The position numbers were made by a program, and so were the translations under genes. The notes beneath the pieces were generated by a model. That model saw only the letters and a list, made by a program, of their open reading frames with translations. It searched no databases and was not told the origin of the DNA. 64,000 bases of DNA. Source: Bacteroides stercoris ATCC 43183 (lineage in GTDB: Bacteria > Bacteroidota > Bacteroidia > Bacteroidales > Bacteroidaceae). Where the stretch lies: the NCBI RefSeq assembly GCF_025147325.1, contig NZ_CP102262.1, forward strand, positions 868,001 through 932,000. The letters run 5' to 3'. Below, piece by piece: positions 5,825-9,798 of the stretch (the first letter of the stretch is position 1; each line of letters starts with the position of its first letter).

Positions 5825-6481
5825 TCAGGTGATGGAATTGGAATGAACAGATGAATTGCTTTGTTGCAATATCAATAAGCTTTCCGGTCCCATATTGAAC
5901 AGCAAATCGATAATGCTGAGGTTGGGCAGGAAGCCGAGTTTTTCCTGAAACACTTGATAGTAGGGTTGCGGAAAAAAATCCGTATCTTCCAAGCGGAAGT
6001 CTTTCTTAGGATGAATGCGTTCACGAAAATCTACTTCGTTGGGTGTAAATATAGCTTTGTACTCTGAGGTACGTTCTATAGTTGGCTGTATGTCTATCAG
6101 GGAGCAGACGAGGTGGCAAAGTTCTTCGTTGAAATCGGCTAAAAACTCATATTTCTTTTCATAAAAAGGGCGGAAATCATCTTTGTAATATTCAAAGAAA
6201 GGTGTATGGTTGTATGCCGATTCAATGGCATTCCAGTGCAGATGACGCCAGTTGCCGTGGTCGGAGATACGGATATCACGCATCGGACATTTCGGTGTGT
6301 CGGGTTTGACTGTAGGAATGGAAAGGGCAAGTTCACCGTCGGGCGCAGCAATAGTGCAACGGTTACGATACGTCTGTTTGGTATAATGGTCGTGCTGTTC
6401 GATATATATTTGGTCGTATGCCAACAGTTTGGTATAGTATTCAACCGGAGCCAGATAGGCGGAAGAAAGATAGACGGTCAT
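5825..6481 (-). CDS. WbqC family protein
   Basis: A 218-aa protein of the WbqC-like family. Family features are the N-terminal segment (SSAYLAPVEYYTKLLAYD), the YRNRC segment and a conserved His-Trp region (NWRHLHWNAIESAYNHTPFF). Some relatives sit in O-antigen clusters and are thought to act on amino sugars, but no reaction is established. It is the last gene of the minus-strand run from dapB and follows the second lepB-like gene by 88 bp, so cotranscription is likely but not certain. No signal peptide is seen. Confidence 0.85.
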   Translation of the reverse strand: MTVYLSSAYLAPVEYYTKLLAYDQIYIEQHDHYTKQTYRNRCTIAAPDGELALSIPTVKPDTPKCPMRDIRISDHGNWRHLHWNAIESAYNHTPFFEYYKDDFRPFYEKKYEFLADFNEELCHLVCSLIDIQPTIERTSEYKAIFTPNEVDFRERIHPKKDFRLEDTDFFPQPYYQVFQEKLGFLPNLSIIDLLFNMGPESLLILQQSNSSVHSNSIT

Positions 6482-6569
6482 TTGAATTGAGCATTTAAGA
6501 ATTAAAAATTAAAAAATAAGAACCGGCAGGAGTTACTGCCTGGTACTTTATCATTTGGCTGTTTGATTA

Positions 6570-7508
6570 TCACTTTATTTTTCTCCATATCCTGTCCCAG
6601 CGATACCCGTTGAACAATCCCGTATCCTGCTCCTTTGAGAACCAGATGACGGCGGCCTTTCCGATGACATGGTCTTTGGGGACAAGTCCGAACAAACGGG
6701 AGTCTGACAGGTTTATCGAGTTGTTGGCACCCACCCAATAGTAATCTTTCATAAAGTAACAATGCTGTACAGGTTTTCCTTCTATGTATAGTGTATCATT
6801 TTTGATGTCTGCCCGTTTCCTTTCATGCAACACCAATGTGTTGCGCAGCAGTGTCATGTTCCAGGGATATACACGTACGGCTTTCCCTTTGCCGGGGATG
6901 ATGAGAGGTTTCAGTACGTCAACCGAGTCTTCTTTATCGGCAGGCTCTATCCAGTTGTTTGTTCCTAAAGCCTGTTCCAACAGATAATACTCGTACCTGC
7001 TGAAGCTGCGTACGTTTTTTGCCGTATCCTGTCCCAATAATACGTTGGGGCGGATAGAAAGGATAGTGAGCAGTGAGTCTAACTGCTTCTCTTTCTTCCG
7101 GGGATATGTATAAAGGAACTTCTGGTCGGGAGCGTTTTTTTCCGAAGGAATTACGGAGAAAAGAGAATCTACCCATAAAGTATCTCCCGGTACTCCCAGG
7201 CAACGGCCGATGTATACTTCTCTCTGGTCGATTGCTGTTTGTGAGAGGTTGGCAGGGTTATTGAATACAAGAATGTCATCCTTACGTACTGGTTTGTCGC
7301 CCCAACGGTGATACCCCCATAAGCTTATGAAAGGCAACCGTAGTCCGTAGCTCCATTTGTTTACCAGGATGCGTTCACCGCGGTACAGTGAGTTTTCCAT
7401 TCCTGTGGAAGGAATCAGATAGGAAGTTGCAACGCAGCTCCGGAGCAATATCACTGTAAGTATTACTCCGGTCAGGGTAGCTGCAATCTTCCAATTCCTT
7501 CTCCGCAT
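6570..7508 (-). CDS. Signal peptidase I-like protein lacking catalytic residues
   Basis: A 312-aa homologue of S26 signal peptidase I with one N-terminal membrane segment (about 8-26) and the family boxes in order. Both catalytic positions are changed. Box B reads I32-P-S-T-Gly36-M-E-N-S-L where active enzymes have the nucleophile Ser before Met. Box D reads Y99-I-Gly101-R-C-L-G-V-P-G-D where active enzymes have Lys before Arg. I checked both codons (GGA at 7401-7403, GGC at 7206-7208, minus strand). The remaining fold signatures (VPGD, GANNSINLSDSR near the C-terminus) are kept, so it looks like a folded pseudoenzyme rather than a decaying gene. It follows lepB by 34 bp in the same operon. 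A role as partner or regulator of the active LepB is inference. Confidence 0.88.
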   Translation of the reverse strand: MRRRNWKIAATLTGVILTVILLRSCVATSYLIPSTGMENSLYRGERILVNKWSYGLRLPFISLWGYHRWGDKPVRKDDILVFNNPANLSQTAIDQREVYIGRCLGVPGDTLWVDSLFSVIPSEKNAPDQKFLYTYPRKKEKQLDSLLTILSIRPNVLLGQDTAKNVRSFSRYEYYLLEQALGTNNWIEPADKEDSVDVLKPLIIPGKGKAVRVYPWNMTLLRNTLVLHERKRADIKNDTLYIEGKPVQHCYFMKDYYWVGANNSINLSDSRLFGLVPKDHVIGKAAVIWFSKEQDTGLFNGYRWDRIWRKIK

Positions 7509-7542: not shown

Positions 7543-9027
7543 TTAATGTACCCACTTGAAGATGCGGTTCCAACGGATTTTTCCATCAAACCAACCACGG
7601 TCTTTATCTAATGAGAGCCAGACAACGATAGGCTTACCTACTACGTGGTCTTCCGGTACGAAGCCCCAGTAGCGGGAGTCAAGGGAATTATGGCGGTTGT
7701 CGCCCATCATCCAATAGTAGTCCAGCTTGAAGGTGTAGGTGTCTGTTTTTTGTCCGTTGATGTAGATACCGTCCGGTTTTTGTTCCAGTGTATTGCCTTC
7801 ATAAGCTACGATGCAACGTTCGTAAATGGGCAGGTTATCTTTGTTCAGGGTAATGGTCGCACCTTTTTCCGGTATCCAGACTGGACCGTAATTATCCCGT
7901 GTCCACTTTGTATAGAGGTTTTGCGGATACATTTGTCCTGAAAGGTTTTCCGGTTCCATGACGATGCGGCTGACCAGTTTTTTATTGCCGGCGAGCGTAT
8001 CGTACATTTTCTGGGTGAGGGGCAGGTGGTACACCGGAGTCAGTCTGCCTTGAGCATCGCGGCGGTCCAATCCCATCTGCATAAGTCCTTCTTCATAATT
8101 GAAGTCATCGGTCATCAGTATCTGGTCGTCGTTACTGATGCCCAATTCGCGAAACATCTCTTCCGGTATGTACGGGCCGGTGGTCTGTACGAAATAGTTG
8201 AGCTGCATCTCTTCCGGATTCTCGATGGCTTTTCCGTCGATGTACACTTGTGTATCTTTGATTTGCAGGGTATCTCCCGGCAGGCCGACGCAGCGTTTTA
8301 CATAGTTCTCGCGGCGGTCGACCGGACGTACCACAATATCACCGTACATTTGCGGATTGGTACGGATCAGATTACGGCCGGCATTGTAATAAAGGTCGTA
8401 GACGGTACGCTGCTGGTCGCGCGTCAGACTGTCCATATTGATTTTATTGGGATATACGCGCTGTCCTTCCCTGTAAGCCAGGCTGTAAAAATCTTCTTGC
8501 TGTCTGTTAAGCGCTACCGTATCACCCGCAGGAAAGTTGAACACGACAATGTCATTCAGCTTCACTTTTCCGAAACCCGGTACGCGTTTGTATTCCCATT
8601 GCGGCCATTCAATGTACGATTTGGTGTTGAATATCGGCAAAGTGTGTTGTGCCAACGGCATGGAAAGCGGTGTGTTCGGTACACGCGGACCGTAGCTCAT
8701 TTTACTTACATACAGAAAGTCACCCACCAGCAATGATTTTTCCAGTGAAGACGAAGGTATCTGATAGTTCTGGAATATGTAGATATTCACAAAATAAACA
8801 GCCACCAAAGCGAATACAATGGCGTCTACCCAACTCATAATGCCACGCACAGCCGGATTCTTGGATTTTTTCCAGAAACTCCAAGGTATTTTCTTGCTGA
8901 TGTAGATGTCAAATATGAAAGGAAGTACAATCAGTCCCCACCAACTTTTCACCCAGACAAGGAACATCAGGTAGAGCAGGGTAACTATGCCGAATTTGAC
9001 CCATTGGGCACGTGTTGCTTTTCTCAT
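7543..9027 (-). CDS. lepB: Signal peptidase I
   Basis: The active signal peptidase I, which cleaves signal peptides from exported preproteins on the periplasmic side of the inner membrane. At 494 aa it is longer than the E. coli enzyme owing to inserts between the catalytic boxes, a form usual in Bacteroidales. Two N-terminal membrane segments (about 12-36 and 66-85) precede box B (P91-S-S-Ser94-L-E), with Leu in place of the common Met after the nucleophile. Box D has Y242-V-Lys244-R-C-V-G-L-P-G-D, giving the Ser/Lys dyad. The C-terminal box GDNRHNSLDSRYWG is intact. It starts 6 bp after dapB. Confidence 0.95.
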   Translation of the reverse strand: MRKATRAQWVKFGIVTLLYLMFLVWVKSWWGLIVLPFIFDIYISKKIPWSFWKKSKNPAVRGIMSWVDAIVFALVAVYFVNIYIFQNYQIPSSSLEKSLLVGDFLYVSKMSYGPRVPNTPLSMPLAQHTLPIFNTKSYIEWPQWEYKRVPGFGKVKLNDIVVFNFPAGDTVALNRQQEDFYSLAYREGQRVYPNKINMDSLTRDQQRTVYDLYYNAGRNLIRTNPQMYGDIVVRPVDRRENYVKRCVGLPGDTLQIKDTQVYIDGKAIENPEEMQLNYFVQTTGPYIPEEMFRELGISNDDQILMTDDFNYEEGLMQMGLDRRDAQGRLTPVYHLPLTQKMYDTLAGNKKLVSRIVMEPENLSGQMYPQNLYTKWTRDNYGPVWIPEKGATITLNKDNLPIYERCIVAYEGNTLEQKPDGIYINGQKTDTYTFKLDYYWMMGDNRHNSLDSRYWGFVPEDHVVGKPIVVWLSLDKDRGWFDGKIRWNRIFKWVH

Positions 9028-9033
9028 AATACT

Positions 9034-9798
9034 TTAGTCTTTTAAAAATGGAAATAAATCGCTCATGCCTAAGAAACCTTGTTTGCCGGCTGTATATTCT
9101 GCTGCCAACACAGCTCCCAAAGCAAAGCCGCTGCGGGTCTTGGCATCATGGGTAATGGTGATGCTGTCTGCCTCTGAATCGTAGCGGATGCTGTGAATGC
9201 CCGGTACTTCTCCCTCGCGGATAGAGCTGACCGGAAGTTCGTCGGCAGCGCATTCGACAGAGCCTGACACGGTTCCATCCGGTGCTTGCAAGGTACCTTT
9301 TACCCAACGGCTTTTGCGGTCGAGATTATCCAGAATACCTTCGGCCAGGGTAATGGCAGTGCCGCTTGGAGCATCCAGCTTGTGTATATGGTGAGTTTCG
9401 CTCATTGTTACGTCGTAAGCAGGGAACCGGTTCATGATCTTCGCCAGATATTTGTTGACGGCCGAGAATATGGCTACTCCCAGACTGAAATTAGATGACC
9501 AGAACAGGGTTTTTCCACCTTCGGAACAAAGCTTTCTTACCTCTTCACCATGTTCTTCCAGCCAGCCTGTACTGCCCGAAACCAATTTTACGTCTGCCTT
9601 GAAAGCTTTCATATAATTGTTGTAGGCTGCCGTCGGATTGGTAAATTCTATGGCGACATCGGCACTTTTGAATGCGGCCGATTCAAAATCCTCCTGGTTA
9701 TTCACATCGATGATGCTGACAATTTCGTGTCCGCGGCTTAAGGCAATCTTCTCGATTTCCTTACCCATTTTTCCGTAACCGATTAATGCGATTTTCAT
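9034..9798 (-). CDS. dapB: 4-hydroxy-tetrahydrodipicolinate reductase
   Basis: DapB reduces 4-hydroxy-tetrahydrodipicolinate with NAD(P)H in the diaminopimelate/lysine pathway, supplying lysine and the peptidoglycan cross-linking residue. The nucleotide-binding glycine motif (GYGKMGKEI) is at the N-terminus, and the substrate/catalytic motif ETHHIHKLDAPSGTA is in the middle. The 254-aa length is normal for Bacteroidetes. It is the first gene of the minus-strand run dapB-lepB-lepB-like-wbqC-like, with a -7 box at 9843-9850. Confidence 0.97.
   Translation of the reverse strand: MKIALIGYGKMGKEIEKIALSRGHEIVSIIDVNNQEDFESAAFKSADVAIEFTNPTAAYNNYMKAFKADVKLVSGSTGWLEEHGEEVRKLCSEGGKTLFWSSNFSLGVAIFSAVNKYLAKIMNRFPAYDVTMSETHHIHKLDAPSGTAITLAEGILDNLDRKSRWVKGTLQAPDGTVSGSVECAADELPVSSIREGEVPGIHSIRYDSEADSITITHDAKTRSGFALGAVLAAEYTAGKQGFLGMSDLFPFLKD

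Follow-up and report, generated by a model that had tools for sequence, protein, structure and literature searches.

A maintained, dyad-less signal peptidase paralogue encoded beside lepB in Bacteroides stercoris and its relatives

The genome of Bacteroides stercoris ATCC 43183 encodes, next to the signal peptidase I LepB, a second protein of the same family, here called LepB2, which lacks both residues of the catalytic Ser-Lys dyad. We analysed a stretch of 64,000 nucleotides of this genome (hereafter the window), in which lepB2 occupies positions 6570..7508 of the minus strand and was identified by its open reading frame (ORF), its PF10502 match, an S26 alignment and its model fold as a catalytically dead type I signal peptidase paralogue of 312 aa. 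A first-pass annotation of this DNA had proposed a maintained pseudoenzyme beside an active LepB. Conserved loss of the dyad, conserved gene order, purifying selection and retention of the fold all agree with that proposal, and the conclusion that LepB2 is an old, maintained pseudoenzyme is well supported.

The DNA reads GGA at codon 36 of lepB2 (7401..7403, minus strand) and GGC at codon 101 (7206..7208, minus strand), both coding for Gly. When 93 S26 rows were aligned (49 loci plus the window), these residues fell in the columns of the nucleophile and the general base of the neighbouring LepB, Ser94 and Lys244 (8746..8748 and 8296..8298, minus strand, by alignment numbering). In agreement with this result, alignment with Escherichia coli signal peptidase I matched Gly36 to the catalytic Ser90 and Gly101 to the catalytic Lys145 (numbering of PMC4049620). 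The first-pass reading of two glycines opposite an intact dyad in LepB was thus confirmed, as was its statement that lepB2 carries no frameshift, the ORF being an intact 312 aa plus stop. LepB2 lacks the box B Ser nucleophile and the box D Lys of catalytic type I signal peptidases (S26A). Its membership in the S26 superfamily is indicated by the PF10502 Peptidase_S26 profile (83 bits, cut-off 22.9), which matches 23 of the 23 members of set A1, by an AlphaFold2 model with the signal peptidase fold and by a match of 38% over 114 residues with LepB in the C-terminal part. In the whole 4.0-Mb genome two S26 frames only were found, lepB2 and lepB.

A search with the LepB2 protein returned 2196 homologues with an E value of at most 1e-5. 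Among the best 120, which were listed and read, the Ser column held Gly in all 120 and the general-base column held Ser in 101, Gly in 19 and Lys in none. For the family survey, 473 S26 frames, with genome duplicates removed, were sorted by two custom-made profiles into 266 LepB-like and 207 LepB2-like frames. Ser and Lys were both present in 239 of the 266 LepB-like frames, the remainder being contig-end pieces or second copies in deeper families, and the LepB2-like frames came from the window's family, f1 (155), from named loci (21) and from other families (31). The first-pass annotation had considered that most close orthologues might retain Ser and Lys, which would point to an isolated decaying copy; this did not occur, since Lys was found in 0 of the 155 LepB2-like frames of f1, sampled as 154 genomes picked because lepB2 was present. 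In the Ser column these frames gave Gly 148 times, Ala 3 times, Ser twice, Asn once and a gap once, and raw sequences revealed two of the three Ala rows to be misaligned Gly and the third to be a piece of a frameshifted gene. Column 36 was Gly in 147 of 150 rows, compared with a mean column identity of 0.64. Because relatives show the same loss, chance or a sequencing error in the window is excluded, and the homologues and the family survey together rule out recent decay or sequencing error behind the missing dyad.

Outside f1, the Ser column of the 31 LepB2-like frames held Gln in 20, Ala in 5, Ser in 4 and Cys in 2, and Lys occurred in one frame only (L264, family f104). This frame, with both Ser and Lys, was taken as probably another S26 paralogue because its match was weak (173 bits), neither lepB nor wbqC was seen in its stretch and it sat on a long branch. 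A further frame, L265 of f80 (Gln/Gly), stood alone on a long branch, and both were excluded from the count of ten other families of the order Bacteroidales and from later trees. In these ten families the Ser column was Gln, Ala, Cys or Ser, and no Lys was present. A search with the f60 copy gave 5510 proteins, of which 120 were listed: two were incomplete at a column, 91 had Ser and Lys, and the other 27 had Gln combined with Ala, Gly or Ser. The orthologous group has the S26 fold and a dyad replaced throughout, as expected of pseudo-signal peptidases. As a separate observation, the prevalence of Gln at the former nucleophile column outside f1 (L031, L035, L036 and other loci) recalls the Gln found after signal peptides in this phylum, a resemblance that may be coincidental.

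The first-pass annotation had also stated that the other family boxes are kept, and this was true in part. Box E reads GDNRHNSLDSR in LepB and GANNSINLSDSR in LepB2: the equivalents of Asp280 and Arg282 are retained, whereas those of Gly272, Asp273 and Ser278 are replaced, with Ala261 in the Gly272 column and Leu267 in the Ser278 column, so that the box E residues supporting the Lys are missing. Across f1 the Gly272 and Ser278 equivalents are also gone and the hydrophobic cleft residues stay; judged from sequence, these cleft columns are less well retained in other families. All in all, these results show that LepB2, to the extent that alignment and model fold reveal, would be unable to use the signal peptidase mechanism, since nucleophile and base are gone and f1 also loses the base-supporting residues. 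Another catalytic activity through other residues is very improbable. Ser34, the equivalent of E. coli Ser88, is retained in 131 of 151 f1 rows but only in 10 of the 29 rows from the ten other families; no new residue pair is shared at the nucleophile and base columns, whose content varies; and a sequence check for a replacement Ser/Lys pair in LepB2 pointed to no new conserved Lys, because the conserved ones (K51, K284) occur in LepB as well.

lepB2 is under purifying selection. The ratio of non-synonymous to synonymous substitution rates (dN/dS, Nei-Gojobori) was 0.056 for the pair with B. clarus, 0.048 with B. propionicigenes and 0.071 with B. gallinarum, and 0.017-0.025 for lepB in the same pairs; dS is near saturation here, so the values are rough, still far below 1. 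Median dN/dS over independent family pairs was 0.072 for lepB2 (20 pairs, 0.035-0.177), 0.045 for lepB (18 pairs) and 0.130 for wbqC (19 pairs). Gene order is conserved too: lepB, lepB2 and wbqC followed each other in 140 of the 154 f1 genomes (11 had no wbqC in the stretch and 3 were irregular), and the same order was found in f60, f109, f20, f24, f91, f31, f22, f3 and f105. Conservation and dN/dS thus show that selection keeps LepB2 for a non-catalytic job. That lepB2 is instead a decaying, functionless duplicate is extremely improbable. Some copies have the look of decay, such as that of B. rodentium, split into two frames whose pieces are otherwise well conserved (L022:4917-5917; the same gene as L176), and some genomes carry shortened copies of 233-250 aa or clean losses; against this stand a dN/dS of 0.05-0.07 and the conservation, in many families, of Gly36, of the gene order and of the fold, and functionless decay is refuted by conservation in the main lineages.

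Relatives are graded from an intact dyad, through loss of Ser with Lys kept, to loss of both, so that the course of the loss can be traced. Second copies of the deeper families f77, f90, f63, f38, f65 and f85 have Arg, Lys, Asn, Met or Leu in place of Ser and keep the Lys; both residues are gone in f97, f54 and others; and both are intact in f13, f69 and part of f89. The second copy lies right after lepB in f90, f63, f38, f65, f85, f97, f54, f69 and f89, and no lepB was present within the fetched stretch of f77 and f13. Some loci (L237, L241, L242, L245, L248) with Ser lost and Lys kept look like an intermediate stage, and intact tandem second copies also occur in other orders of the class (L287, L288, L292). 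In a tree of 106 rows (120 less 14 that were long, partial or near-duplicates; all trees were of the quick kind), the 72 second copies formed one clade with a support of 100 by the Shimodaira-Hasegawa-like approximate likelihood ratio test (SH-aLRT). When relatives from other orders were added, the unconstrained tree no longer united the second copies, so all of them may, but need not, stem from a single duplication; a clade of the second copies plus three intact tandem copies of other orders was not rejected by the approximately unbiased test (p-AU 0.42). Every tree contained a dyad-less core clade of 11 families, with 49 rows (99), 47 rows (100) and 38 rows (100). Parsimony required 4 changes for dyad loss on the 106-row tree or 3 on the tree with other orders, but a tree uniting all 65 rows without the dyad in a single clade was not rejected (p-AU 0.267).

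We propose, with confidence evenly balanced for and against, that LepB2 is a partner of LepB that is anchored in the membrane and binds preproteins without catalysing their cleavage. Residues 2-25 (7434..7505, minus strand) form an N-terminal hydrophobic helix (H2-25 in the AlphaFold2 model) that, from its sequence, is likely a single membrane anchor, and residues 121-198 (6915..7148, minus strand) a cap subdomain within the signal peptidase core. LepB2 would sit in the inner membrane by a single N-terminal anchor and expose a domain of signal peptidase fold to the periplasm. Encoded by a neighbour of lepB on the same strand, it might work next to LepB, either as an accessory subunit or as a partner in precursor hand-off. 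The cleft, which its sequence suggests to be retained, would bind the C-terminal part of the signal peptide or the early mature part of the preprotein, and LepB2 could in this way tune the choice of precursors cut by LepB or the rate of cutting. The first-pass annotation had likewise conjectured that LepB2 might adjust the activity or substrate choice of LepB.

Several results weigh against this proposal. In a genus-wide search of 158 genomes, with presence defined as a match below 1e-60 and counts taken from the results table, lepB2 was matched in 126, 30 gave weaker matches (LepB itself or a short form) and 2 gave none; the 32 genomes without a full-length match include many incomplete drafts. 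The well-assembled genomes (completeness of 90% or more, contamination of 5% or less) numbered 93, and about 7 of these gave a weaker match, completeness being rounded in the table. Loci from most of the 126 genomes, together with loci from other families, supplied the frames analysed above. Twelve genomes were selected for weak lepB2 matches. In six (G490, G443, G480, G420, G548, G568) lepB was followed by wbqC with no S26 frame between; in G622 an unrelated gene followed lepB; G441, G476 and G590 had short dyad-less forms of 235-245 aa at the lepB2 place; G429 had a distant S26 protein only; and G442 had nothing. Because lepB is directly followed by wbqC in several genomes, LepB can do without LepB2, and lepB2 is dispensable in places. 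LepB2 distances tracked those of LepB no better than those of WbqC (partial r 0.41 versus 0.59), so no special co-evolution of LepB2 with LepB was seen. The second shell is better preserved in the ten other families than in f1 (Gly at the Gly272 equivalent in 8 of 29 rows, Asp at the Asp273 equivalent in all 29), and in those families the equivalents of the cleft-edge residues Pro87 and Tyr143 are not conserved. The natural losses and the lack of specific co-evolution with LepB are the strongest of these points. The losses in several lineages also tell against a decoy or brake that would hold signal peptides or uncleaved signal anchors away from LepB, or limit it through mixed dimers; loss of catalysis with retained cleft-lining columns and the close coupling of lepB and lepB2 fit such a function, which from sequence we consider distinctly unlikely.

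Three other observations were made in these genomes. The gene between lepB and wbqC in G622 (L299:580-1455) encodes a membrane protein with a cysteine-rich N-terminal motif. Extra small S26 frames of ~230-317 aa occur in some Bacteroides (L304, L307 and places in G441), and the two that were read had Ser and Lys. A canonical LepB was not found in G429 (5.0 Mb, listed complete).

Compared with type I signal peptidases (LepB/SPase I; MEROPS S26, PF10502; PDB 1b12, 3s04, 9nlo), LepB2 lacks the Ser nucleophile and the Lys, has the Gly272 and Ser278 equivalents replaced in f1 and is shorter (312 versus 494 aa for LepB). Dead signal peptidases are already known in Gram-positive bacteria. In Staphylococcus aureus, spsA presumably adjoins spsB. 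SpsA is described as an inactive, dispensable S26 paralogue without the two conserved catalytic residues, beside one active SpsB (PMC12445088). It resembles LepB2, by description, as a dead paralogue in a genome with one active enzyme, and belongs to another phylum. SipA of Streptococcus pyogenes (PDB 4n31) likewise combines the signal peptidase fold with replacement of both catalytic residues. Its description reports Asp48 and Gly85 at the catalytic positions, a side chain in place of the Gly272 equivalent, a preserved cleft and an essential role in pilus polymerisation (PMC4049620). LepB2 might by analogy be an assembly chaperone that binds one exported class, for example surface fimbriae or lipoproteins, independently of LepB, in which case the neighbourhood of lepB2 would mean co-expression only. 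We regard this as unlikely: SipA belongs to a Gram-positive sortase-pilus cluster, whereas lepB2 lies in a Gram-negative housekeeping locus beside an active signal peptidase, its neighbours here and in relatives being dapB, lepB and wbqC and not pilin or assembly genes, and the likeness is distant (16% identity over 122 aligned residues).

In the window, dapB (9034..9798; ORF, profile matches, relatives' loci) leads the conserved order dapB-lepB-lepB2-wbqC, followed by lepB (7543..9027; 494 aa; ORF, profile match, S26 alignment), lepB2 and, 3′ of it, a wbqC-like gene (5825..6481; ORF, profile match, relatives' loci), all on the minus strand and separated by gaps of 6, 34 and 88 bases. The last gap contains a weak terminator-like hairpin (6525-6540, minus strand); such sites are no commoner than in shuffles.

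NCBIfam TIGR02227, the signal peptidase I equivalog, accepts LepB2 (76.6 bits, cut-off 47), and therefore automatic annotation would call this dead protein an active signal peptidase; sources indeed label LepB2-type proteins signal peptidase. We found no paper on the Bacteroidales LepB2 in the open-licence literature, and its lineage, its setting beside lepB and its breadth appear to be new. Signal peptidase I of Gram-negative bacteria is usually regarded as a lone enzyme. A dead copy kept by selection next to LepB suggests a so far undescribed helper function in protein export. Present in many families of an order prominent in the human gut, it offers experiments a concrete candidate second component of the export pathway. 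A tentative and rather doubtful extension is that signal peptidase I of the Bacteroidales works as a machine of two subunits, in which the dead paralogue would receive the precursor and set which signal peptides the catalytic LepB cuts. In the eukaryotic signal peptidase complex, Sec11 works with non-catalytic partners that are not known to be S26 proteins. If true, the two-subunit machine would be a bacterial counterpart of that complex, reached through duplication of the protease and loss of its dyad.
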